This document shows positions 47,913 through 64,000 of a stretch of DNA of 64,000 nt, one piece after another; the first letter of the stretch is position 1, and each line of letters opens with the position of its first letter. The stretch lies in assembly GCF_002086455.1 (NCBI RefSeq), contig NZ_MVHC01000003.1:124001-188000 (forward strand), given 5' to 3'. The notes under the pieces are model-generated. The model searched no databases and was not told where the DNA came from. It saw only the letters and a program-made list of their open reading frames with translations. The stretch is from Mycolicibacter algericus DSM 45454. GTDB lineage: Bacteria > Actinomycetota > Actinomycetes > Mycobacteriales > Mycobacteriaceae. A program made the position numbers and the translations under genes.

Positions 47913-49531
47913 CGGGTCTCTCCCCCGTTGGTTGCACCCAGCTCGGTGGTGGCGCGGCGAACGGGTCGTTGATCCGGTGCCAGCCCGTCGTGGGCCAGCA
48001 GGGCGTCGGCGCGCGACAGCGTGGGACCGAGGGCGAATTGCGACAGCACCGACCACGGGATGGGCACTGCGGGCCGGCTCAGCCCCAGCGCAGCCACGGT
48101 GTCACCGTCGCTACCGGCGGTTCCGCTCTCGGTGTTGACGCCGTAGCGCACGCCGGTGTCGGCGATCCAGAACAGCGGTCCCGCCGAGTGGTCGGCGGTC
48201 GGATCGGCGCTGACGCTCTGAACGAAGTAGCCGGTGCCCGGTGCCAGCGCGACCCGCGCGGCGGTCCCGCCGACTCCGGCGCCGACCAGATCCAGGGTCC
48301 GGACACCGTCGCGCAGCGGCAGCGACGAGCCGGACAGCAGCGTCAGCGAGCTGGTGCTGGCGCCGGCCGCCCGGCTCCAATGCGCGCAGGTGAGCGGGTC
48401 GGCCACCGAATCGATGACGCTGACCGGCTGCTCGGGGAAGCGGGAGACGTCCAGTGCGTGCGACACCGGCAGCCGGGCGACGTCGTCGGCGCCGAGCAGC
48501 GGCGGGCGGTCCAGCCCGTGGGAGTCGGTGTTGCGCAGCACCGCGGCGACCACGCCGGAGATCGGTTGCAGGCCGTCCGGCAGTACCGCGTAGTAGCGCA
48601 GGGTGCCCTGCTCGTTGCCCTCTAGGGCGTGCGCGGCCATGACCGCGCCCACCGGCGCGTCCCCCGGCAGGTCGAACGACGGCTTGTCGCCTGCGCCGGG
48701 GATCACCGGCGCGGTCAGCGGGGGCGCCTCCGGGATCACGTTGAACAGGCCCGTCGAGATCGAGCGGGGCGCGGGAACGGCGGTGCCCTTCTCGCCGAGC
48801 CCGAGCGCGCCGGTGATGGCGCGGTCGGCCAGGTCGATCCGGCTGCGTTTGCCGTCCCAGAGCAGCCATGCTCCGGAACCGTTGTCGGCCAGCACCACCT
48901 GGTGTGCGTCGAGTGCACCGGCCCGGGAGCCGCCGTCGCCCAGCGGCCCGCCGATCACCGTGACCCCGGCTTCCGAGCCGGCCACCGAGTCGCACACCGT
49001 CCAGTCCGCGTCGCGGCTGGTGTTCTGCACCATCCGTTCCGGAGCTCCCGGGATGCCGATCAGGTTGCCGCGCGGGATCTTGTCCAGCCCGGCGCTTTTC
49101 ACCGCGGTGGGATTGACCGGGCGGCCGGCGATCAACCGCGCCGAGGTCAGGTTCAGCACCGGGTGCAACTGGTCTCCGACCCGCACATACAGCGCCGACG
49201 TCGACTTGTCCGCCAGCACCGGGTCATTGGCAGCGGCACTGTTGGGCCAGATCAAGGTGAACACGAAACAGCCACCGGCGACGGTGGCCAGCACCAGCAG
49301 ACCCATGAGCACGGCGCGCGCCTGTGAGCGCAGCGGCTCGACCAGCATCCGGGTGTCGTGCAGGGCCACCCCCGAGGCGATCCGGCGCATCACGAAGCGC
49401 CAACCGCTGACCTGATGCTTGGTGACGAACCCTCGCCGGTATTCGACGCGGTCGGGGTTCTCGTTGACCGGGGTGCGCGATGCGAAGGAGCGCCGCTCCT
49501 CCTCGGGCCGGTCGGATTGCGCGGCACTCAC
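47909..49531 (-). CDS. eccB3: EccB3, periplasmic-domain subunit of ESX-3
   Basis: The 540-residue protein (GTG start overlapping the eccA3 stop as GTGA) begins [20 protein letters not shown]. It has a short cytosolic segment, one membrane helix near residues 74-95 ([17 protein letters not shown]), and a large periplasmic domain with R1-R4-like repeats and paired cysteines ([15 protein letters not shown]). EccB holds the hexameric complex together on the periplasmic side. It is followed by eccC3 with 4 nt overlap. Confidence 0.95.
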
Positions 49532-51360
49532 GCGTTCGCCTCCAGTCCCAGGCCACGCAGCAACGGCGTCACCGAGTAACGGACGTCTTCGGTCGTGATG
49601 GTCATGAGCTCCTCATCGGTGAACACCCCGGTGCCGGACTGCTCGGAGTGGTCGAGCCGGAACTCGCGCTCCTCTTCCGAGCGTTCGACCAGGTTTCGCA
49701 CGAACCGGCCGTTGCCGGCGATGTCCAGGCTGCGCCGGGCGATGCCGTTGGCGTCGGGGTGCGACGCCTCGGCCAACTGGTGGAACAACGCCTGCATCTC
49801 CTCAAGCGCCGCCGGCTCGAAACGGCTGTCGCGCTGTTCGGCCATCTTGTAGGCGATCTCGACCAGCTCCGGCGGCTGGTAGGACGGGAAGTCGATGCTG
49901 CGGGTGAACCGCGACCGCAGACCTTCGTTGGTGTCCAGGAACCGGTCCAGGTCGGCGCGGTAACCGGCGACGATCACCACCAGCCGGTCACGGTCGTTCT
50001 CCATCCGCGCCAGCAGTGTGTCGATCGCGACCAGTCCGAAGTCGTTCTTGGCGCCGGTGGCCACCAGGGCGTAGGCCTCATCGAGGAACAGCACGCCGTC
50101 CAGCGCACTGTCGATGATCGCATTGGTCTTGGCCTCGGTCTCACCGATGTGCTGACCGATCAGGTCGGCACGGTGCACCTCTTTGATGTTCTCTTTCTTC
50201 AGCAGCCCCAGACCGCAGTAGATCTTGGCGACCACGCGGGCGATGGTGGTCTTACCGGTTCCGGGCGGCCCGGCGAACACCAGGTGGTGGGTGCGCTGGC
50301 CGACGGCCAGTCCGTGCTGCTTGCGCACCACCTCCATGGCGACCGAACTCTTGAGCCGCTGCACCTGGTTCTTGACCTCGGACAGGCCGATGAACTCGCC
50401 GAGTTCGCGTTCGGCCTCGGCCAGCAGCTCGGCCTTGCGTTCGTGGGCGGCGGGGTCGATGAAGTCCTCGGCGCTCGGCTCCGTCTGGGGGTCCCAGGGG
50501 TCGGTCCGCGCCTCGATCCGCGCGGCGGTAGTCGTGACGATCCCGAAGCTGGTGTCCAGCAGGGCCTCTTCGACCTGCTCGTTCTCCGGGTTGGCTGCGT
50601 AGAGGTCCTGCAGCACCTCCTCGGCCGTCTCATCCTCGCCCTGCGCCCGCAGGATCAGCCCCTTGGCCAGTGCCCCGTCGGTGGCCGCGACGGCGATCGG
50701 GCCGTCGGGCTCCTCCAGGTAGGACAGTGCCGGGGCGTACATGCCCAGCCGGGCCAGCGCGACGCCCAGCGCGATCTTGGCGGCGTGGCTGAACAGCTCG
50801 TCTCGGTCGGGGTCGTTGACGATCGGGGTCAGCAGCTTGACCATGTCCGACCACCGCCCGGCGTGGTGGTTCACCGAGATCGCCAGCCAGCGTGCGTCGT
50901 TCCAGTTCGGGCGCCGGGCGGTGATCTCGGCGACGATCTCGTTCGCCTCCGCGCAGCGGCCCGCCATCGCCAGCTGGGCGGCGTGCGCCAGGTGGAAGTC
51001 GTCGGCCTCGGTGGCGCGCAGCTTCAGGTAGAGCCCGGTGTCGTAGTGGAACCCGAGCGCGCCCTGCGGCAGGTCCAGTCGGCGCTGCAGTGCCCCGGCG
51101 CTCGCAGCGGTCTGCGAGACGGCGGCCAGCACCCGCGGTGACTGGTCGCCGGCAGCGGCCAGGCCGGTCCAGGCATCGCACTGCTCGTGCGCGACACGGG
51201 TCAGCGCGGCGAAACCGGTGCGGGCCGCAACCAGATCGGCGGGCCGTTGCCGCTGGTACACGGGGATGCCCAGGGCACGACAGCAGGTGGCGAACCGGCT
51301 GAGAGTCTCCTCGTCGATCCGAGGTTGCGGTGCCAACAGAGCCGCGTCACCGTTGTTCAT
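49528..51360 (-). CDS. eccA3: EccA3, AAA+ ATPase of ESX-3
   Basis: The 610-residue protein (MNNGDAALLAPQPRIDEETL) has an N-terminal TPR-like helical domain and a C-terminal CbxX/CfqX-type AAA+ domain with Walker A GPPGTGKTT (near residue 363), Walker B VLFLDEAYAL (near 423) and a sensor arginine region DRFLDTNEGLRSRF. EccA is a cytosolic ATPase thought to act on PE/PPE-EspG complexes. It is the first conserved gene of the main locus. The leader carries Zur- and IdeR-type sites, so expression should rise in zinc or iron limitation. Confidence 0.96.
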   Translation of the reverse strand: MNNGDAALLAPQPRIDEETLSRFATCCRALGIPVYQRQRPADLVAARTGFAALTRVAHEQCDAWTGLAAAGDQSPRVLAAVSQTAASAGALQRRLDLPQGALGFHYDTGLYLKLRATEADDFHLAHAAQLAMAGRCAEANEIVAEITARRPNWNDARWLAISVNHHAGRWSDMVKLLTPIVNDPDRDELFSHAAKIALGVALARLGMYAPALSYLEEPDGPIAVAATDGALAKGLILRAQGEDETAEEVLQDLYAANPENEQVEEALLDTSFGIVTTTAARIEARTDPWDPQTEPSAEDFIDPAAHERKAELLAEAERELGEFIGLSEVKNQVQRLKSSVAMEVVRKQHGLAVGQRTHHLVFAGPPGTGKTTIARVVAKIYCGLGLLKKENIKEVHRADLIGQHIGETEAKTNAIIDSALDGVLFLDEAYALVATGAKNDFGLVAIDTLLARMENDRDRLVVIVAGYRADLDRFLDTNEGLRSRFTRSIDFPSYQPPELVEIAYKMAEQRDSRFEPAALEEMQALFHQLAEASHPDANGIARRSLDIAGNGRFVRNLVERSEEEREFRLDHSEQSGTGVFTDEELMTITTEDVRYSVTPLLRGLGLEANA

Positions 51361-53423: not shown

Positions 53424-54998
53424 TTAAGTTGGTTCGGCCCGTGGGCTGTTCCCCCAGGAGTCCGGCAGCATCGGAAGCCTGGGGCCCCGGCCGAACTCAT
53501 CGCGCGCCAATTCCGCCAACCCCGCAGGCTGCGTCACCCCGGTCGCACCGAGGGTGCCGGTGAACCCCGCCGAGCCGTGCTGGACCTGCGGTGCAGCGCC
53601 CGGGTCGTGCTCCTCGAGGTACTCATAGCGGTAACCGGGGTCGATCAAGGTTCCGCGGCGGCGACCTGGTTGCCGCGCCGCGCCCCGCACCGACTCGGTG
53701 ACCGCCGCGGGCACCGCGATGTCGGGTGCGCGCCGGGCCGCCTTCGAGGCCACGGTGGCGGCGGTGCGCTGCGATGCGGGGAGCCAGCCCACCAGGTAGC
53801 TGTGGAACGTGCCTTCGGTGCCGATCAGCGGCGGTGCCGCCGGCGGCGGCGGGGCGGCAGCGGGGGCTGTCGGTATCAACGCGGCCGGGGCGGCAGGCGC
53901 AGCCGGCCCGGGCACCGCGGCCGGAACCGGCGCGGGCGGCGCCGTACCACCCGAGATGACCGGCGCCACCGGCGCGGGCGCCGGCATCACCGGCGGCGCC
54001 GCGATGCCGGCCAACCCGGACAGTCCGGACAAGCCGGCCAGTCCCGACACGCCGGCCACCGGTGCCAGCACCCCCAGGTTGGCGATCGACAGGTTCAAGC
54101 CGACACCGGCCAACAGCGGGGACAGCTGGGCGAAAAAGCGCAGGCTGCGCAGCGTCCAATTGACCGCACGGTAGGTCTGCCACGCGATGAAGTAGCTCGA
54201 CAGCTGCCACCACTGGGCGGGCGTCAGCGGGCCCTGGAAGTTCTGTTGCAGCCAGGCCAGCGCCTTCTCGTTACCGTTGAAGAAGTTCGACAGATTCTGC
54301 AGGAATTCCGCCGGACTCCAGTTGGGCTGGCCCTGTCCGGGCACCTGGTCTCCGTCACGACCGAAGAGCATCTGCCAGATCTCCGCCGGTGTCGGCAGGT
54401 CGAAGTTTCCGCTGCCTCCGCCGCCGCTGCCGCCACCGCCGCCACCGCCGTCCCCGGCGGCAGCGGAGCCCGCTTGGGTTCCGCCACTGGTATGCCCCAG
54501 GCTGCGCGCGGTCTCGGTGGTGGCCTGGTAGACGCTCATAACGGTGGCCGCCTGAATCCACATCCGCGCGTAGTCGGCCTCGTTGACGGCGATCGGAATG
54601 GTGTTGACACCGAAGAAGTTGGTCGCAACCAGCACCGCGTGGGTGGCGTGGTTGGCGGCGAGCTCGGCGAGCGTGGGCATCTCCGCCAACGCGCTGCTGT
54701 AGGCCGTCGCGATCACCTCGTGCTGGGTGGCGGTCCGGGCACTGAGGGTGCCGGCCAGCTGCAGCCAGGCCAGGTAGGGCAGGTGCGCAGCAGCATAGGC
54801 GTCCGCCGTCGCACCGGCCCACACACCCTGGGAATCTGCCAGCACGGCAGCGAGTTCGGTTGCGGCGCTGAGATACTCCCCGCTCAAGGCGGTCCAGGCG
54901 GCCGACGCGGCAAGGAGCGCACCGGGTCCCGGGCCTGTGCTCAGCATCGCCGAATGCGTCTCCGGCGGGGCCGCCATCCACACGAGGGCGGACATCAC
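53424..54998 (-). CDS. PPE3-like protein of the second ESX-3-type cassette
   Basis: The 524-residue protein (GTG start aligning with the PPE4 start) begins [20 protein letters not shown]. The PPE domain has [11 protein letters not shown] and [20 protein letters not shown]. After a Gly-rich hinge ([14 protein letters not shown]) comes a helical region with several Trp ([17 protein letters not shown]), then a Pro/Ala-rich part, and a tail [16 protein letters not shown] and LPMLPDSWG that matches PPE4. Location and size fit PPE3 (Rv0280) of M. tuberculosis. It is presumably an ESX-3 substrate dimerising with the adjacent PE. Confidence 0.9.
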
Positions 54999-55005
54999 CG
55001 CACCG

Positions 55006-55305
55006 CTACCGCGGAAACGCCGACGCGGCCGACGTGTCGGCGGCCTGGTAATTCGCCCCGGCCGCGGCTACGCCGACCCCGGCCCGGCCCAGCACCTCGG
55101 TGCCGCGCGCGGCGACGGCCTCATGCTGGCTGCCCTGCATGCTCAGTTCCGCCGCGGCTTGCAGCGACACCGGGTCCATCGCCGGCGGAACCACCGCGGT
55201 GATCAGCGGGGCCGCTGACGCGTGGGCGGCCGCCAGGGTGGCGGCGATTGCCTCCACCGCCGCGCTCGTCGCGGCCAAGCCTTCGGGAACGACGTGCAGG
55301 ACCAT
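55006..55305 (-). CDS. PE-family protein of the second cassette
   Basis: The ATG at 55305 (GGAAGGAG ribosome-binding site) gives 99 residues starting [20 protein letters not shown]. It is a short PE protein with no extension; the secretion motif region is [17 protein letters not shown]. It is followed after 7 nt by the PPE, so the two will be translated together. It is a paralogue of PE5, with many substitutions. Confidence 0.92.
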
Positions 55306-55402
55306 GACGAAGCTCCTTCCGGCAACGAACGCGGCGTAGGCCGTCGACCTCAAGGGACCTCAAGAACTCTAGCCGACGAACACCTTTTCACTGGCCTTAG
55401 CT

Positions 55403-55476: not shown

Positions 55477-56253
55477 TCAATACTTCTTGACGACCGCCCG
55501 CGGTGCGGTCCGCCAGTGGCGCCGCCCATCGGGTTGCTCGACAGGTGGTTCCAGCAGGAGCACAGCGGCGCCCCCCAGCAGAACCGGCCGGACCCAGTCA
55601 CCCAACTCGATACGCTCCCCGGCCGCGGGTCGGCGGTTGCCGCCGTCGCGGGCTTCGTCGATGGGCACGCTCGCCAGCAGTTCGTCGACAGTCGCCGCGT
55701 GGGGCAGGTCAGCGAGGCCGGGCAGCGTGATGAACAGGCCGTCGTCGCCGGAGAGCTGCAGGCCGATAGCCGACAGCGCACCCACCACCCCGTCGTGGGT
55801 TCCCCCGTGCCCGGACAGCTGCACCCCGAGTTCGTCGGCGAGGTGCCGAGCCTCGGCACGGTGCAGCACTTCGCGTTTGGCCCGCCGGCCGAACTCCACC
55901 AGCGGTCCGATGTCGGACAGGTCGGCCGGGACCGCGACGGCGAGGCCCGGGTCGGCGGCCGGTGGGCAGACGCGTTCCAGGAACCGGGCGGTGTAGTCGA
56001 TGATCTCGCCGCGTACCGCGTGCGGGTCGCCGGCTGGGCTACGCCAGGCCAGGCAGGCGCTGGAATTGTGCGAGGTATAGGGCACGCGGTCGTCGACCAG
56101 CAGTTGGTGGCGGGTGGCACCGGCTGCACTGCCCAAACCCGCGGCGGCCAGTTCGCACAGCAACGCTCGGGCGCGCCGGCCGGTGCCGGGACTGAACCGG
56201 TCATCGGTGTCATCGATGGCGATCAGCAGATCGACGCCGGCGAAGACCGTCAC
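55477..56253 (-). CDS. TiaS-like IDDTDD-domain protein
   Basis: The GTG at 56253 overlaps the upstream stop (GTGA) and gives 258 residues beginning VTVFAGVDLLIAIDDTDDRF. The IDDTDD sequence followed by an RARALLCELAAAG helix and YTSHNSSACLAW resembles the N-terminal half of archaeal TiaS, the agmatidine synthetase that modifies tRNA-Ile. TiaS itself is archaeal, and the OB-fold and zinc ribbon of full TiaS are not visible. The bacterial protein is more likely an acidic-site enzyme of unknown substrate, associated with the upstream lipoprotein. The function is not known. Confidence 0.6.
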   Translation of the reverse strand: MTVFAGVDLLIAIDDTDDRFSPGTGRRARALLCELAAAGLGSAAGATRHQLLVDDRVPYTSHNSSACLAWRSPAGDPHAVRGEIIDYTARFLERVCPPAADPGLAVAVPADLSDIGPLVEFGRRAKREVLHRAEARHLADELGVQLSGHGGTHDGVVGALSAIGLQLSGDDGLFITLPGLADLPHAATVDELLASVPIDEARDGGNRRPAAGERIELGDWVRPVLLGGAAVLLLEPPVEQPDGRRHWRTAPRAVVKKY

Positions 56254-56690
56254 GGGTTGACGACCACGGTCTGCACGTCGCGCACCCACCGGTCACGGTC
56301 GAGGTCGGCCGCGGCCAGCTTGACGGTGTCGCGCTTGGTGAAACTCAGCACGACCCGGTCGGTGAGTTCGGCGGCGGTCAGCGTCTGCGCGGGGTCGCTG
56401 CCCTCGATGCGGACACTGCGGATGTCGGCAGCCCCGGCGGCGTCCAGCACCGTGCGCACCGACGGGCCGCGCTGTACCGGGCTGCCGTGCGACTGCGGGG
56501 TGGTGATCTCGATCTGCGGCAGTTCACCCAGCCGTGCCAGATCGAACTCGTCCAGCACTCGACCGTCCTGCCGGACGACCAGGTGGTACCCGGCGTCGGA
56601 ATCGGCGGCGCACCCCCCGATTCCGGTGCTGACGACGAGGACCGTCAGACCCATTCGGAGCAGGTGCCCGGCAGATGACCGCATGTGCAT
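56250..56690 (-). CDS. Lipoprotein with SUOX-like molybdopterin-type domain
   Basis: The ATG at 56690 gives 146 residues with a lipoprotein signal (LLRMGLTVLVVSTGIGGC; lipobox GIGGC). The mature domain (HLVVRQDGRVLDEFDLARLG, LPQIEITTP, GPSVRTVLDAAG) has the compact layout of the sulfite-oxidase molybdopterin-binding superfamily, but no cofactor-binding Cys is visible. It may be a degenerate or binding-only version. It is translationally coupled to the TiaS-like gene and divergent from the membrane-protein gene at 56789. Confidence 0.6.
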   Translation of the reverse strand: MHMRSSAGHLLRMGLTVLVVSTGIGGCAADSDAGYHLVVRQDGRVLDEFDLARLGELPQIEITTPQSHGSPVQRGPSVRTVLDAAGAADIRSVRIEGSDPAQTLTAAELTDRVVLSFTKRDTVKLAAADLDRDRWVRDVQTVVVNP

Positions 56691-56788
56691 GACCGTATGT
56701 CGGCATCGATGCGTATTCAAGCTTTAACACGTCGTTCTGGACCGCAGATGAGGTTGTGTGGCGCGGCCGTCAGGCCTACCTTGAGGCG

Positions 56789-57340
56789 ATGACTGTGATG
56801 CCGTGGGCAGCCCGTAACGCGACGAGTCTGGCGCTGGCCCGCGAGGTGGTTTTTCCGGCCGCTGCCGCCGCCGTGATCACCATCTCCGCTGACGTGCGGA
56901 TGCCGCTGGCACTGCCCGGACACCGCGGCCTGGTGTGGCTGACACTGCTGGTGGCCGTGGCATTGACCACCCGCAGACCGCCCACCGTGCTCGCCGTGGG
57001 GGCCGCATCCACAGCGGCGACCCTGCTGCTGCAATCCGGGCCCGGGCCGTGGGCCAGCATCCGCTACCTGGGCGCCGCGGTGTTGCTGTACCTGCTGATC
57101 GCAAGTCCCGCGGTACGGGCACGCCGGTGGCTGGTCGCACTGGCCGCCGCCCCGGTTCACCTTGTCGCGCTTGTTGTTCCACTCACGAGGTGGCTCATCG
57201 TCGGCCACTCGTTCGGGATGGTGGCCATCGGCGAGAAGGCGCTGTTCCACCTCGGATTCGGCCTCGCGGCCGGGATGCTCGGCTGGGCGATCGTCGCTGT
57301 GATCGACCGCGCCGCACCGGCAGGCTCCCCGAGCGGTTAG
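56789..57340 (+). CDS. Integral membrane protein, six predicted helices
   Basis: The ATG at 56789 (MTVMPWAARNATSLALAREV), with TTGAGG before it, gives 183 residues consisting almost entirely of hydrophobic helices separated by short loops such as TTRRPPTV and VRARRW. I do not recognise a family. It diverges from the lipoprotein/TiaS-like pair, so a functional link is possible. Its end overlaps the convergent PGRS gene by 4 nt. Confidence 0.65.
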   Translation: MTVMPWAARNATSLALAREVVFPAAAAAVITISADVRMPLALPGHRGLVWLTLLVAVALTTRRPPTVLAVGAASTAATLLLQSGPGPWASIRYLGAAVLLYLLIASPAVRARRWLVALAAAPVHLVALVVPLTRWLIVGHSFGMVAIGEKALFHLGFGLAAGMLGWAIVAVIDRAAPAGSPSG

Positions 57341-58623
57341 CCTCCGCCGCCGCCACCACAACCGGTGCCGCTGCCGGGGCCGCCGGGACCGCCGCCACCC
57401 GGGTTGGGAACGCAGCCGTCCCCGCCGCCGCCCTTGCTGCCGGGGGTGTTGCCGGCGGCTCCGGCCTCGCCGTTGTCGCCGTTGATGCTGCCCGCGCCGC
57501 CCTGGCCACCGGCACCGCCCTGACCGCCGGGGGTGTCCGGGCCTCTGACACCGGCGAAGCCGCCGTTTCCGCCGGCTCCGCCATTGCCGCCGTTGCCCGA
57601 CATCAGCCCGGCACTGCCGCCCGCTCCACCGGTACCACCGTTGCCGCCGGCGGTGTTCGCTTCGGTGCTGCCGCCACCGCCGCCACCGCCGGTTCCGCCA
57701 CCGGTGCTACCGCCACCACCGCCACCGCTGCCCGCCACGTCGGCACCGTTGCCGCCGTTGCCACCGGCACCGCCGTTACCACCGTTACCCGTTCCCACGG
57801 AGGCACCGTTGCCGCCGACTCCGCCGTTGCCGCCGGCACTGCCGGCGCCGCTGTTCAGTGCCTGGACGCCCTTGACGCCGGCGCCGCCATCGCCGCCATC
57901 GCCGCCGTCGCCGAGCCAGGATCCGGCATTGCCGCCCGCACCGCCGTTTCCGCCGACCATTCCGGCGGTGTCGCCGGCGCCGCCGTCACCGCCATGGCCG
58001 CCATTGCCGAACCAGCTGCCGCCGTCACCACCGGCCCCGCCGGCGGCACCCGCCGCACCGGCGCCGCCGTCACCGCCGTTGCCGAACATGCCGGCCGAAC
58101 CACCGTCCCAACCAGCGCCGCCGTTCACGCCGGCCACTCCGTCGGCTCCGGCGCCGCCGTTGCCGAACAGGAACCCGCCGTCGCCCAGATCACCGAACAT
58201 GCCGGTGCTGCCCAGCAGCGAGGTGTTCTCCCCGGTGAAGTCGTCCAGGCCGTTGCCGATCAGATCGCGTCCGAACAGGTAGACGAACGGCGCGTTGATC
58301 ATCTCGGCCAGCTGTATGCCGGAGTCGCTGGCGAGCCAGGCTTGGAGCGCATCGTTGATCGACTGCGCGAAGTCGAGTGGACCGGACTCCGCGCTGCCCA
58401 GACCGAAGACGAGATTGGTATCGCCGAACCCGGCGAACGGGTCGGCGCCATCGCCCGTGCCACCGTCGAAGACGTTGACGAACGGGTCGACGATCAGATC
58501 CCAGAGATCGTCGGCGTGCGCGGTGGGAGCGGCGGCGATCGGCACCATCCCGGCGACCAGGAACGCTCCGGCTGCGGTCCCGAGCAGGCGTTTGCCCCGA
58601 CTGTCACGGCTACGACCGGTCAT
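57337..58623 (-). CDS. Signal-peptide PGRS-type Gly-rich protein lacking a PE domain
   Basis: The 428-residue protein has a Sec signal peptide (RLLGTAAGAFLVAGMVPIAA, cleavage AHA-DD near residue 37). A 90-residue region follows with ALQAWLASDSGIQLAEMINA and FGRDLIGNGLDDFTG, similar to the linker of PE_PGRS proteins. The rest is about 270 residues of GGxGG/NGGxGG repeats ending GTGCGGGGGG. In M. tuberculosis this position next to PPE3 holds PE_PGRS4; here no PE domain is present. The protein is a paralogue of that at 20469-21185. Sec rather than ESX-5 export is the simplest reading. Confidence 0.82.
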   Translation of the reverse strand: MTGRSRDSRGKRLLGTAAGAFLVAGMVPIAAAPTAHADDLWDLIVDPFVNVFDGGTGDGADPFAGFGDTNLVFGLGSAESGPLDFAQSINDALQAWLASDSGIQLAEMINAPFVYLFGRDLIGNGLDDFTGENTSLLGSTGMFGDLGDGGFLFGNGGAGADGVAGVNGGAGWDGGSAGMFGNGGDGGAGAAGAAGGAGGDGGSWFGNGGHGGDGGAGDTAGMVGGNGGAGGNAGSWLGDGGDGGDGGAGVKGVQALNSGAGSAGGNGGVGGNGASVGTGNGGNGGAGGNGGNGADVAGSGGGGGGSTGGGTGGGGGGGSTEANTAGGNGGTGGAGGSAGLMSGNGGNGGAGGNGGFAGVRGPDTPGGQGGAGGQGGAGSINGDNGEAGAAGNTPGSKGGGGDGCVPNPGGGGPGGPGSGTGCGGGGGG

Positions 58624-58760: not shown

Positions 58761-59579
58761 TCAACCGACGATGCGGTCGGCCCGGCTGTAGACGTTCATC
58801 GAGTCACCGCGGAGGAATGCCACCAGGGTCAGGCCGGATTGGCTGGCCAGGTCCACGGCCAACGAGGAGGGCGCCGACAGTGCGGCCAGCACTGGGATCC
58901 CGGCCATCACCGCCTTCTGGGTCAGTTCGAACGACGCCCGACCGCTGACCAGCAGGACGGTGCCCGACAGCGGTATCCGGTTACGTTCCAGCGCCCAGCC
59001 GATCACTTTGTCGACGGCGTTGTGCCGGCCGATGTCCTCCCGTACCACCAGAACCGACCCGTCGGAGCTGAACAGTGCGGCGGCGTGCAGGCCACCGGTG
59101 CGGTCGAACACGTCCTGCGCTGAGCGCAGTCGGTCCGGCATCGCGGTGATCGCCGCCGCGGTGACGCTGACCGGGTCATCGCCCGGACAGTACCGGCTGG
59201 CCAGTTGTACCGCGTCCAGCGAAGCCTTGCCGCAGATCCCGCAAGATGAAGTCGTATAGAAGTTGCGGGTGACGTCGACCGTGGGCGGCGGCACGCCGGG
59301 CGCCAGCGTCACATCGAGCACGTTGTAGGTGTTGGGCCCGGCCGGCGTACCGCAGTAGCGCGCGCTCAGCACGTCGGCGCGCCCGGAGATGATGCCCTCG
59401 GTGAGCAGGAAGCCCTGCGCCAGTTCGACATCCGATCCCGGCGTACGCATGGTGACGCTCAGCGGCGTGCCGTTGAGGCGGATCTCCAGCGGCTCCTCCA
59501 CCGCCAGCGTCTCGGGGCGCTGCGTCGCGGCACCGGCCGCGACATGGCTCACCCGGCGCCGCTGCGTTATCCGACTCAT
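58761..59579 (-). CDS. fdhD: FdhD, sulfurtransferase for formate dehydrogenase
   Basis: The ATG at 59579 gives 272 residues. FdhD transfers sulfur to the molybdenum cofactor of formate dehydrogenase and is required for its activity. The reactive cysteines are in [10 protein letters not shown] (Cys113 and Cys116). The conserved [28 protein letters not shown] and [13 protein letters not shown] motifs are all present. It lies divergent from the formate dehydrogenase alpha gene, with 57 nt between starts, so the two share a regulatory gap. Confidence 0.95.
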
Positions 59580-59636: not shown

Positions 59637-62600
59637 ATGGTTCCGCGAAAATTCCTGGAGTGGCCGGTGATCCGGCAACTGCGCACCGGTGACGTGTTCG
59701 GCCGCGGGCCGGCCGTCACCTCCGAACGCACCCGCGCCACCGTGCCGCGAACCGCGACCGCCGACCGAGTGGTGCAGAGCATCTGCCCCTACTGCGCGGT
59801 GGGCTGCGGGCAGCGCGTCTACGTCAAGGACGAGAAAGTGGTGCAGATCGAGGGCGATCCGGACTCGCCGATCTCACGCGGCCGGCTGTGTCCCAAGGGC
59901 GCGGCGAGCGAACAACTGGTCAACTCTCCCGGGCGGCAGATCACCGTGCTCTACCGGGCGCCCCGCGCCAGTGACTGGCAGCCGCTGGAGTTGGACACCG
60001 CGATCGACATGGTGGCCGACCGGTTCATCGCCTCCCGGCGCAACGGCTGGCAGGACCACGACGACTACGGCCGGCCGCTGCGGCGCACCATGGGGATCGC
60101 CTCGCTGGGCGGCGCCACGCTGGACAACGAAGAGAACTACGTCATCAAGAAGCTCTTCACCGCCGCCGGCGCGATACAGATCGACAATCAAGCTCGTATT
60201 TGACACTCCGCCACGGTTCCCGGTCTGGGAGCCTCCTTCGGTCGCGGTGGCGCGACACAGTCCCTGCAAGACATGGCGAATGCCGACTGCATCGTCATCC
60301 AGGGCTCCAACATGGCCGAGTGCCATCCGGTCGGATTCCAGTGGGTCGAAGAAGCCCGGAGCCGGGGCGCCACCGTGATCCATGTCGACCCGCGGTTCAC
60401 CCGCACGTCGGCGGTGTGTGACACGCACATTCCGATCCGGGCCGGCTCCGACGTGGTGCTGCTGGGTGCGCTGATCAACCACGTGCTCACCCACGACTTG
60501 TGGTTTCGTGACTACGTGCTCGCCTACACCAACGCCGCGACGCTGGTCAGCGAGGACTTCCGCGACACCGAGGACCTGGGCGGGCTGTTCTCCGGGTTCG
60601 ACCCGGAGACCGGGCAGTACGACCCGTCGACGTGGGCGTACCAAAGCCGCGACGCCGGCGAGGACGACATCGGCTCGCCCGGCGGTGGTCATGAGCACGG
60701 CGCCAGCGCATCGGCGCGCTCGCTCGGCGAGACGCTCGGCAGCGGCGGCGCGGCACTCGAACACCCCCGGGTGCGGCGCGATCAGACCCTGCAGCACCCG
60801 CGCACAGTCTTCCAGATCCTCAAGCGGCACTACGCGCGCTACACCCCGGAGATGGTCCGCGACGTCTGCGGCATTGACACCGAACTGTTCGACTACCTGG
60901 CGCGCGCCGTCACGTCCAACTCGGGGCGGGAACGCACCACGTGCTTCGCCTACGCGGTGGGCTGGACACAGCACACCCTGGGCGCCCAGTACATCCGCAC
61001 CGCCGCGATCCTGCAGCTGCTGCTGGGCAACGTGGGCCGGCCGGGCGGCGGCATCATGGCGCTGCGCGGGCATGCCAGCATTCAAGGTTCCACCGACATC
61101 CCGACCCTCTACGACATGCTGCCCGGCTATCTGCCGATGCCCAAGGCCGGGCGCGACGACACCCTCGGTGCCTACCTGGGCCGCGTCGGGTCGAAGAGCC
61201 AGAAGGGTTTCTGGGCGGACGCCGACGCCTACCTGATCAGCCTGCTCAAGGCGTGGTGGGGCGACGCCGCGACCGCCGACAACGACTGGGCTTATCACTA
61301 CCTGCCCCGGCTGACCGGAGCCCACGGCACCTATCAGACCGTGACCGGGATGCTGGCCGACGAAGTCGAGGGCTACTTCCTGCTCGGTCAGAACCCGGCG
61401 GTCGGTTCGGCCAACGGGCGCCAACAGCGGCTGGGCATGGCGCACCTGAAGTGGCTGGTGGTACGGGATCTGAACCTGATCGAGTCGGCCACCTGGTGGA
61501 AGGACGGTCCCGAGATCGCCTCCGGCGAGCTGCGCACGCAAGACATCGAGACCGAGGTGTTCTTCCTACCGGCTGCCGGTCACGTCGAGAAGGCCGGGAC
61601 GTTCACCCAGACCCAACGGCTGCTGCAATGGCGCCATCAGGCCGTGGCCCCGCCGGGAGACTGCATCAGCGAGTTGCAGTTCTTCGTCGAACTGGGCAAC
61701 CGCATCCGCGCCAAGCTGGCCGGGTCGACCGATCCGCGAGACCGGCCGCTGCTGGATCTGGTCTGGGACTACCCCGTCGACGAGCACGGCGACCCGGATC
61801 CCGAGTTCGTGCTGGCCGAGATCAACGGGCATCAGCTCACCGGCGACGACGCCGGCCGGCCGCTGTCGTCCTACACCGAATTGCGCGCCGACGGGACCAC
61901 GGCCGGCGGCTGCTGGATCTACACCGGGGTTTACGCGGACGGCGTCAACCAGGCCGCCCGGCGGGTGCCCAACGGCGGGCCGAGCCGCAGCCAGTCGCAG
62001 TGGGGTTGGGCCTGGCCGGCCGACCGGCGGATCTTGTACAACCGGGCGTCGGCGGACCCGGACGGGGTGCCGTGGAGTGAACGGAAGCGCTACGTCTGGT
62101 GGGACGCGCAAGCCGGCCGCTGGACCGGCGATGACGTGCCCGACTTCGTGGTCGACCGTGCCCCGGGCGCCCGGCCGGATCCGGCGTCGGGCGGTCCGGA
62201 CGCGTTGGCCGGTGACGACCCGTTCGTGATGCAGTCCGACGGCAAGGGTTGGTTGTTCGCGCCCAAGGGCGTGGTGGACGGCCCGCTGCCGACCCACTAC
62301 GAACCGCAGGAGTCACCGATCGCCAACGCGGTGTATCTCCAGCAGCGCAATCCGGCTCGAATCACCTTCCCGCGCAAAGACAATCTGTCGGCTCCCAGTG
62401 CCGGTGAGCCGGGCGCCGACGTCTACCCGTACGTGTTCACCACCTACCGCCTCACCGAGCACCACACCGCCGGCGGCATGAGCCGCTGGTTGCCGTATCT
62501 GGCCGAACTGCAGCCGGAGATGTTCTGCGAGGTCTCCCCCGCGCTGGCCGCCGAGCGGGGCCTGGAGAACTACGGCTGGGCGACCATCATCTCGCCGCGG

Positions 62601-62927
62601 GCGGCGATCGAGGCGCGCGTCCTGGTGACCGACCGGATGACACCGCTGATCGTCGGCGGACACACCGTGCACCAGATCGGGCTGCCGTATCACTGGGGTG
62701 TCGGTGGCGACGCGGTGGTCAGCGGCGACGCCGCCAACGACCTGCTCGGGGTGACCCTGGATCCGAACGTGCAGATCCAGGAGTCCAAGGCCGGTTCCTG
62801 CGACATCCGGCCGGGCCGGCGACCGCACGGCGAGGAGCTGCTGCGGCTGATCACCGAATACCAAAGCCGTTCCGGCGCAACACCGGAGACCGGCAACACC
62901 GCTGTCGACCCGGAAAGGCGGGACTGA
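59637..62927 (+). CDS. Formate dehydrogenase alpha subunit, selenocysteine-containing
   Basis: I read one gene of 1097 codons with in-frame TGA at codon 189 as selenocysteine, giving 1096 residues. Upstream of the TGA are the MopB features: 4Fe-4S cysteines at 50, 53, 57 and 85 ([15 protein letters not shown]) and IDNQARI. Right after the TGA the frame continues [20 protein letters not shown] and [15 protein letters not shown], as in FdnG/FdoG enzymes, where the Sec lies at the same place (QARVUHGPT). The C-terminal MopB-binding domain ends near [12 protein letters not shown]. There is no twin-arginine signal. It oxidises formate using a molybdenum or tungsten bis-pterin cofactor. Confidence 0.92.
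60201..60203 (+). other. In-frame TGA read as selenocysteine (codon 189)
   Basis: The TGA is in frame with coding sequence on both sides and follows CAAGCTCGTATT (QARI). The next residues are [10 protein letters not shown] hairpin at 60215-60233 fits a SECIS. Confidence 0.9.
60215..60233 (+). promoter_or_regulatory. SECIS element 3' of the selenocysteine codon
   Basis: GGTTCCC (60215-60221) pairs with GGGAGCC (60227-60233) around a GGTCT loop, giving a 7-bp stem (one T-G pair), starting 11 nt after the TGA. Escherichia coli fdhF has the same GGUCU apical loop, recognised by SelB, at a similar distance. This is strong support for Sec insertion rather than a stop. Confidence 0.85.
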
Positions 62928-63892
62928 TGGGCCAACTTTCAGGACCGACCAACCCCGCCGCCGACGCGCGATGGTCAGCGCAACACCGGCGTAAAGGCTT
63001 CCTCACCGACACCTCGATCTGCATCGGCTGCAAGGCCTGTGAGGTGGCCTGCAAGGAGTGGAACCACAACCCGGCCGACGGCGACCTGGAGCTGCTCGGA
63101 TCCTCCTATGACAACACCGGCTCGCTGGGCGCCAACACCTGGCGGCACGTCGCGTTCATCGAACAGGGCGCCGACGCCATCGCGAACGCCCGCGAATCGG
63201 GGCGACAGCTGATCGATCTGGGCATGCCCAAAATGCCTGGCGCAGCAACGGATATCGCGCCGCCGGCTACCGAGCAGTTCCGCTGGCTGATGGCCTCGGA
63301 CGTCTGCAAGCACTGCACGCACGCCGGATGCCTGGACGTCTGCCCGACGGGCTCGCTGTTCCGCACCGAGTTCGGCACGGTCGTGGTGCAGGACGACGTC
63401 TGCAACGGCTGCGGAAACTGCGTGCCGGCCTGCCCGTTCGGGGTGATCGAGCGTCGCACCGACGGCACAGCGGCGCCGAAGTCCGCCCGCGGCGCCGCTC
63501 CCGGCGTGGCAGAAGTCGGGATCGCCCAGAAGTGCACCATGTGCTACGACCGGCTGGTCGACGGCGGAACTCCGGCCTGCGCCAAGACCTGTCCCACCGA
63601 ATCGATCAAGTTCGGTGACCACGACGATCTGGTGGCCGATGCCCGCGAGCGGGTGGCCCGACTGCACGCTCAGGGCCGCACCGAGGCCCGGCTCTACGGC
63701 GCCAACGAGCACGATGGCGTCGGCGGCACCGGATCGGTCTTTCTGTTGCTCGACGAGCCGGAGGTCTACGGCCTGCCACCGGACCCGCGGGTCGGCACCG
63801 CCGATCTGCCGGCGATGTTCAAGCGGTCGGCCCTGGCCGCGGCCGGGATGCTGGCCGCCGCCGCCGTCGCATTCCTGGGGGGGCGGTCATGA
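62927..63892 (+). CDS. Formate dehydrogenase iron-sulfur beta subunit
   Basis: The 321-residue protein begins [20 protein letters not shown]. Four ferredoxin-type cysteine groups are visible (CIGCKACEVAC, CKHCTHAGCLDVC, CNGCGNCVPAC, and CTMCYDR with CAKTC), consistent with four 4Fe-4S clusters relaying electrons from the alpha subunit to the membrane. The final 25 residues form a membrane helix (ALAAAGMLAAAAVAFLGG). It overlaps the alpha stop (TGATG) and the next start (ATGA), so all three are coupled. Confidence 0.95.
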   Translation: MGQLSGPTNPAADARWSAQHRRKGFLTDTSICIGCKACEVACKEWNHNPADGDLELLGSSYDNTGSLGANTWRHVAFIEQGADAIANARESGRQLIDLGMPKMPGAATDIAPPATEQFRWLMASDVCKHCTHAGCLDVCPTGSLFRTEFGTVVVQDDVCNGCGNCVPACPFGVIERRTDGTAAPKSARGAAPGVAEVGIAQKCTMCYDRLVDGGTPACAKTCPTESIKFGDHDDLVADARERVARLHAQGRTEARLYGANEHDGVGGTGSVFLLLDEPEVYGLPPDPRVGTADLPAMFKRSALAAAGMLAAAAVAFLGGRS

Positions 63893-64000
63893 GCACCGTC
63901 TCGGACGATCCGCGCCGCGGCAGGCGTCGGCGCCGTGGCGGCGGCGACGGTGGCCGCGAGATGCCGATGGTGCCCGACGTGGCGTTCAGCTCCTACTACG
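63889..64000 (+). CDS. Start of a probable NrfD-like membrane subunit
   Basis: A new frame starts with ATG inside the beta stop and reads MSTVSDDPRRGRRRRRGGGD, then REMPMVPDVAFSSYY at the right edge. An Arg-rich cytosolic N-terminus followed by a PDVxFSSYYG-like element suggests the NrfD/PsrC family that anchors formate dehydrogenase and reduces quinone. Truncated by the window, so this is inferred from position and the short motif. Confidence 0.7.
   Translation, partial: MSTVSDDPRRGRRRRRGGGDGGREMPMVPDVAFSSYY

Follow-up and report, generated by a model that had tools for sequence, protein, structure and literature searches.

Formate dehydrogenase (FDH) systems that use selenocysteine (Sec), of the kind that we predict here for a 64,000-nucleotide stretch of the Mycolicibacter algericus DSM 45454 genome (the window; contig NZ_MVHC01000003.1, positions 124,001 to 188,000), have already been reported in mycobacteria. 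Mycobacterium marinum is described as containing selA and the alpha and beta subunits of a Sec-FDH (MMAR_5190, MMAR_5194 and MMAR_5195), which the passage on this locus gives as lost in M. ulcerans (PMC3434033). M. avium is listed as having SelB (PMC1780047), and M. avium paratuberculosis is entered with its FDH alpha subunit in a 2005 table of predicted recoding (PMC1242214). A 2015 genome paper states that UGA codes for Sec in its four mycobacterial strains (PMC4524478), and tRNA-Sec was predicted in 103 mycobacteria according to the relevant passage of a study covering 244 (PMC9569102). A region of Corynebacterium aurimucosum (cauri_0962 to cauri_0968), described in 2010, combines fdnG-fdxH with selD-selA-selB-selC and has a UGA codon in fdnG (PMC2830990). 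For Actinomycetospora chiangmaiensis, selenite-dependent formate removal has been measured, three Sec-FDHs were deduced in the genome, and the FDH1 cluster is given as FdhA1-FdhB1-FdhC1, a permease, SelA and SelB (PMC7176365).

The gene of interest in the window, fdhA, is predicted to encode the alpha subunit of a likely membrane-bound FDH dependent on molybdenum or tungsten, and its in-frame UGA codon would be read as Sec by the products of the adjacent selA, selB and selD genes together with tRNA-Sec. We assign this reading a probability of about 0.97. What was less expected, given the published systems, is the evolution of two types of Sec machinery within the genus.

The in-frame TGA codon of fdhA

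Under the standard code fdhA appears as two separate frames: an upstream open reading frame (ORF) of 188 aa (59637-60203), which is terminated by the TGA, and the frame that goes on after it, uninterrupted for 907 codons, to a stop at 62925-62927. In the protein searches the pieces before and after the TGA were run separately. The upstream piece covers positions 3-185 of the NCBIfam profile NF041513 (actinobacterial FDH) and the downstream piece covers positions 187-1067, with 1578 bits by itself against a cut-off of 1400; the TGA therefore corresponds to position 186. With stops read through, the gene gives a single continuous match to positions 3-1067 (1923 bits) with one TGA within it, and a profile search of the whole genome returned four other matches, each of 35.6 bits or less. 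The alignment of the downstream piece begins at residue 141 of Escherichia coli FDH-H (1aa6), and that of the upstream piece finishes at residue 195 of E. coli FDH-N (1kqf), as well as at residue 157 of 1h0h_A and 191 of FDH chains labelled as selenocysteine-containing. We take the Sec positions to be Sec140 in FDH-H and Sec196 in FDH-N, and by these alignments the two pieces of FdhA meet where solved FDHs have their known Sec residue. The domains PF04879 (Fe4S4), PF00384 (molybdopterin) and PF01568 (molybdopterin-binding) follow each other in this order. A first-pass annotation of this DNA had claimed that one TGA interrupts an FDH alpha gene at the Sec site, that coding goes on in frame and that the gene would look like two if Sec was not considered, and all three claims are borne out by these results.

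The two frames of the standard-code ORF list are also what would be seen if the TGA were a nonsense mutation and fdhA a pseudogene in two parts, but the relatives of the gene speak against this explanation. As relatives we used the best 80 of at least 593 loci found in a scan of genome contigs. The closest among the matches listed is Mycolicibacter senuensis GF74, with 97% identity over the downstream piece, which gives a name to the nearest relative of the locus, in what had been called a Mycobacterium-like genome. The TGA and the hairpin described below are found at the site in 80 of 80 named relatives, Micrococcaceae and Nakamurella among them, and the frame after the TGA is open for 869-934 codons in 81 of 81 sequences. 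The ratio of nonsynonymous to synonymous substitution rates (dN/dS), determined against five relatives, is 0.09-0.16 downstream of the TGA and 0.12-0.18 upstream; both halves of fdhA are under purifying selection, and that on the part after the TGA is not relaxed. Synonymous sites are most constrained over the hairpin, the sel genes adjoin, and a nonsense mutation is practically excluded.

The ribosome might instead halt at the TGA and a second start, the ATG at 60273, might give a separate C-terminal subunit; an ATG-started ORF of 884 aa does begin there. Such a protein would lose the 23 residues that follow the TGA. These are part of the FDH profile from position 187 and show good conservation: among the first 24 codons after the TGA, 20 have the same amino acid in about 99% or more of the 81 sequences. 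A second start would also leave the hairpin and the sel genes unexplained. We regard two proteins as very improbable, and one Sec-containing alpha subunit as the preferred reading.

The hairpin, the Sec machinery and the formate dehydrogenase genes

The stem of the putative Sec insertion sequence (SECIS) is separated from the TGA by a spacer of 11 nt (60204-60214), so that its GGTCT loop begins 18 nt past the TGA, and an additional G-U pair could shut the loop down to a GUC triloop. These are the 7-bp stem, the loop and the distance that the first-pass annotation had given. The bacterial SECIS model, as set out in the part of PMC13188914 that defines it, has an apical loop of 3-9 nt on an upper stem of 4-16 bp, a G within the first two loop positions (mostly as N1-G-[G/U]-N-N2, with N1 pairing with N2), a distance of 16-37 nt between UGA and loop, and a minimum free energy of -7.5 kcal/mol or lower. 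The window hairpin falls inside this description with its 5-nt loop and 7 bp, its loop GGUCU, its distance of 18 nt and its energy of -14.6 kcal/mol, and N1-N2 is G-U (69) or A-U (21) in a set of 90 sequences composed of the 80 relatives, the window and nine further loci of the genus. The Rfam model SECIS_3 (RF01989) matches exactly at the hairpin (33.3 bits, E 1.4e-4). Throughout the genome the hairpin is the best match to this model (E 2.1e-5) and no second SECIS was found with it, the runner-up having an E of only 0.92. A match of this strength goes beyond chance. A model built from 34 sequences likewise returned the known site only, which is part of that model by construction. No second selenoprotein was found in the genome, although the search did not go through the other selenoprotein families individually.

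The conservation of the hairpin was analyzed in the same set of 90, and each of these 90 sequences allows a standard pair at all seven stem positions and at the possible loop closure. The 34 distinct sequences give 272 cells, all of them paired, versus 25-74% in versions with the partners slid by 1-3 columns. A single pair has changed on both sides, from G-C to A-U, in three Mycobacterium asiaticum loci. In codons 1-13 after the TGA, codon entropy amounts to 0.58 of what these amino acids would lead one to expect from the rest of the downstream part; none of the 836 other 13-codon windows is as low (lowest 0.62). This test covers the part after the TGA and leaves out the 188 codons before it. 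Codon 5 after the TGA is GTT and codon 6 is CCC in 81 of 81 sequences.

Past the end of the window, on the same contig, the genes follow in the order rest of fdhC, an ORF with a Hva1_TUDOR match, selD, tRNA-Sec, selA and selB. The four sel genes, which the first-pass annotation had predicted for the genome, all lie within 1.3 to 5.5 kb past fdhB (C31:189160-193399), and the Sec-decoding trait is complete. That annotation had also held that a nonsense mutation would be indicated by a genome without Sec machinery, where we found a full set, or by homologs with a cysteine (Cys) codon and no hairpin. Such homologs are absent among the 80 close relatives and present at a greater distance. In a sample of 396 genomes drawn from the genus, the Cys-codon version of the pattern N-Q-A-R-[I/V]-TGA-H occurs in 8 (loci L095-L102); two of these genomes (G137 and G196) also carry the TGA form and tRNA-Sec, and six are without tRNA-Sec at E <= 1e-8. 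Of the eight Cys loci that were fetched, seven can be aligned to the window FDH, at 60-67% identity, and L097 does not align; the GGTCT loop is absent in the three Cys loci whose DNA was inspected. By sequence identity, Cys FDHs without the loop exist as distant relatives of fdhA and not as its close orthologs.

Of the same 396 genomes, 171 have a tRNA-Sec match (E <= 1e-8) and 173 the TGA pattern. The TGA site is present in 171 of 171 genomes with tRNA-Sec versus 2 of 225 without it. Of these two, G086 has SelB at the edge of a contig, and G293, whose assembly is 74% complete, gives no SelB match above the cut-off. Sec use, which the first-pass annotation had mentioned for some mycobacteria, is common in this group and already published. 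The co-occurrence also argues against the UGA being read as another amino acid (e.g., by a suppressor tRNA) independently of selenium machinery, as does a SECIS-like hairpin at a fitting distance. A scan of the window found tRNA-Gly only and a scan of the next 20 kb tRNA-Sec only; no genome-wide suppressor scan was made. We consider that kind of read-through highly unlikely, and Sec remains by far the preferred identity of the residue.

Several results weigh against the reading of fdhA as a Sec-FDH with its own SECIS. The downstream piece alone scores 751 bits against TIGR01553 (alpha), under the cut-off of 814, and FdhB scores 156.6 bits against TIGR01582 (beta), under the cut-off of 334.7. 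The SECIS_3 score of the hairpin lies below the Rfam gathering score of 63, and the hairpin was for this reason not filed as an RF01989 member. Its minimum free energy, determined over 39 nt, compares with a shuffle mean of -12.0 kcal/mol (z -0.96; 30 of 200 shuffles equally or more stable), so that folding energy is no evidence for the hairpin and the case is carried by conservation. Covariation is weak, as there is so little variation in stem and loop: one pair and one cell are two-sided, and 31 of 500 shuffles reach the observed value. With the structure slid by -1 there are even 9 two-sided cells versus 1, though only 73.5% of the cells then pair. Given this weak shuffle control, we rely on the constraint at synonymous sites and on the proportion of cells that pair in comparison with the slid versions. 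Finally, the substrate and the electron acceptor are assigned by homology only.

Under the proposed mechanism SelD would make selenophosphate and SelA would convert Ser-tRNA-Sec to Sec-tRNA-Sec. SelB, together with GTP and Sec-tRNA-Sec, would bind the GGUCU hairpin, with its loop 18 nt past the UGA, and bring Sec to the ribosome, which would therefore not stop there. FdhD would sulfurate the FDH cofactor. Electrons from formate would travel through the alpha-beta pair, by way of the iron-sulphur clusters, to the NrfD-type subunit and from there to menaquinone. The active site would face the cytoplasm, which is the least certain step: inspected by eye, the N-terminus of FdhA shows no RR pair and no hydrophobic core, and since no full twin-arginine signal was seen a cytoplasmic site is probable. 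In the relative L026, also judged by eye, the N-terminus includes an RRxFL stretch with no hydrophobic core. The codon, the hairpin, the gene set and the selection are observed, and we infer that Sec is inserted, that formate is the substrate and menaquinone the acceptor, and that the active site is cytoplasmic.

The features of the locus are collected in Table 1. The start of fdhB overlaps the stop of fdhA, and the C-terminal stretch of FdhB is hydrophobic by eye. FdhC is 349 aa long and its gene extends past the window end. The first-pass annotation had compared the gene with FdnG-type enzymes, which holds for the Sec position of the alpha subunit; the membrane subunit is of the NrfD type and not of the FdnI cytochrome type. 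For fdhD we chose ATG 59579 as the start, since this residue (34 of the longest ORF, from 59678) is the first one covered by the family match.

Table 1. Predicted features of the FDH and sel region, in window coordinates; positions above 64,000 continue the same numbering past the window end.
Feature	Position	Strand	Remarks
fdhD (FDH accessory sulfurtransferase)	58761..59579	-	NF001943 398.6 bits, cut-off 269; divergent from fdhA
fdhA (FDH alpha subunit)	59637..62927	+	1096 codons plus stop, one in-frame TGA
TGA codon, predicted Sec, ligand position of the molybdenum site	60201..60203	+	both pieces meet here; TGA kept in relatives
Putative SECIS hairpin	60215..60233	+	7-bp stem 60215-60221 / 60227-60233, loop GGTCT 60222-60226
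fdhB (iron-sulphur beta subunit)	62927..63892	+	several 4Fe-4S domain matches
fdhC start (NrfD-type membrane subunit)	63889..64000, on to contig C31:188938	+	PF03916 59.9 bits
selD	65160-66137	-	SelD 388 bits, above NCBIfam cut-off
tRNA-Sec (selC)	66174-66268	+	79.3 bits, cut-off 47, anticodon TCA
selA	66288-67598		SelA 418 bits, above NCBIfam cut-off
selB	67612-69399		SelB 269 bits, above NCBIfam cut-off

The Hva1_TUDOR (PF11160) ORF between fdhC and selD encodes 69 aa on the minus strand (64945-65154 in the same numbering; L009:1945-2154). Near fdhD, three ORFs within 55480-57337 have no Pfam match (55480-56289 and 56253-56720 on the minus strand, 56756-57337 on the plus strand). Upstream of the FDH locus, all on the minus strand, are genes for an EccA1-type ATPase, a PPE-PPW protein, a PE protein and a PGRS-repeat-like protein (49531-51360, 53427-54998, 55009-55353 and 57340-58623), the last of which scores under its Pfam cut-off.

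Two types of Sec machinery in the genus

The comparison of the 80 loci revealed that the sel genes are located either downstream of fdhC, as in the window (type A), or upstream and divergent (type B). The type was assigned by the place of selD alone, which is downstream in 46 loci and upstream in 28, with 6 loci lacking selD. The SelB proteins of type-B loci, where present, are 46-50% identical to the window SelB (54% for the L032 fragment), although the FdhA proteins of the same loci are 81-85% identical to the window FdhA. Compared with the window tRNA-Sec over 95 positions, four from type-B loci match at 77-79 and four from type-A loci at 88-93. The compact cluster is interrupted in L018 by about 2.7 kb of extra DNA ahead of selD and in L063 by about 4 kb between selD and selA.

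The first SelB tree had 63 rows; it left out loci without all three sel genes, as well as L052, L032 and L063, whose SelB has 0.41, 0.39 and 0.75 of full length. In a tree of 59 SelB proteins, the relatives of type A are Skermania, Micrococcaceae and Nakamurella, and type B falls among other actinomycete families. This tree and the FDH tree that includes the second FDH described below (FDH-B) were made from hand-picked representatives. The outside relatives of type A came from the FDH scan. Those near type B were taken from the 30 best places in a search that started from a type-B SelB and matched 103 of 394 genomes at E 1e-80; this origin favors relatives of B in the tree of 59. Monophyly of the SelB of the genus is rejected by the approximately unbiased (AU) test (32 rows versus 27, p 2.9e-5), a value that is optimistic because the group was named after the tree had been seen.

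Six of the nine further loci of the genus (L143-L148) have a type-B SelB beside a distinct FDH, which is 61.5-63.0% identical to that of the window after the TGA and whose hairpin stem and loop are identical to those of the window. The remaining three comprise L149 and L150, which are type A throughout, and L151, a hybrid. The nine were chosen by the TGA pattern, and their TGA is therefore not independent evidence. We do not believe the placement of FDH-B inside the Micrococcaceae in the tree, since it hangs on a branch of length 1.65 and joins of this sort are frequently spurious. One genome, G263, has two matches to the TGA-site pattern, yet a single FDH hit (83% to FDH-B).

Hybrid loci, in which an A-type FDH stands beside type-B sel genes, occur in the Mycobacterium colombiense/interjectum group and in the M. 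paraense group, and these two groups nest separately among the A-type loci in the FDH trees. Loci that are hybrid or type B include L026, L021, L055, L143-L148 and L151. FDH-B was not found by a whole-genome search (E 1e-100) in G017, G058 and G061, all with a type-B SelB; the only FDH hit in each is 64-65% identical to FDH-B. The FDH of G017 is 81% identical to that of the window, and we infer that those of G058 and G061 are also of the A type. In the one pair of SelB proteins compared (window versus L026), the C-terminal part, which would bind the hairpin, is 53-60% identical, and the stretch ahead of it (361-480) is 25-35% identical.

These observations suggest that the genus probably runs two phylogenetically distinct, complete and functionally interchangeable Sec machineries, with the hairpin as a portable adaptor and with genes and machineries exchanged separately. 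FDH-A and FDH-B, each found with its own machinery, are about 62% identical as proteins but do not differ in SECIS stem and loop, which would have allowed several lineages to lose FDH-B and decode FDH-A by means of type-B SelB and tRNA-Sec. Our reading of the sequences is that FDH genes may have been exchanged between two machineries made compatible by the shared SECIS, either the FDH or the machinery being the replaced part. Transfer of the Sec trait among Actinobacteria, e.g., from Nakamurella or Microlunatus to Arthrobacter, is discussed in the relevant part of PMC5029168, and no description of an A/B hybrid was found in the literature searched. SelB proteins about 49% identical seem to read the same hairpin in sister lineages, and two types of machinery beside a near-identical SECIS open to test a question that is normally hard, namely the degree to which SelB and SECIS have to co-evolve. 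In addition, fdhA is a clean case of a selenoprotein gene that the standard code splits into two frames, and the risk of misannotation is wide, since the TGA site is carried by so many genomes of the genus.

Comparison with described systems

The M. marinum locus, as far as its published description goes, resembles that of the window as a mycobacterial Sec-FDH with alpha and beta subunits linked to selA. The C. aurimucosum cluster, judged by its reported gene content, has the same gene set in another genus. FDH1 of A. chiangmaiensis, in the part of the paper that lists its cluster, is like the window system a membrane-bound actinobacterial Sec-FDH with selA and selB in the cluster, and unlike it has a permease there and no selD listed. 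The 103 mycobacteria with tRNA-Sec in PMC9569102 compare with 171 of 396 genomes here; the passage of that study on tRNA-Sec makes no link to FDH or to two machinery types.

E. coli FDH-N and FDH-H share the Sec catalytic position with the window FdhA. The spacing between UGA and GGUCU in E. coli fdhF is, we assume, the same 18 nt as in the window. FDH-N has a cytochrome b gamma subunit, FdnI, where the window has the NrfD-type FdhC, and the window system further differs from the E. coli FDHs in that no full twin-arginine signal is seen by eye and in that all sel genes lie beside the FDH genes.

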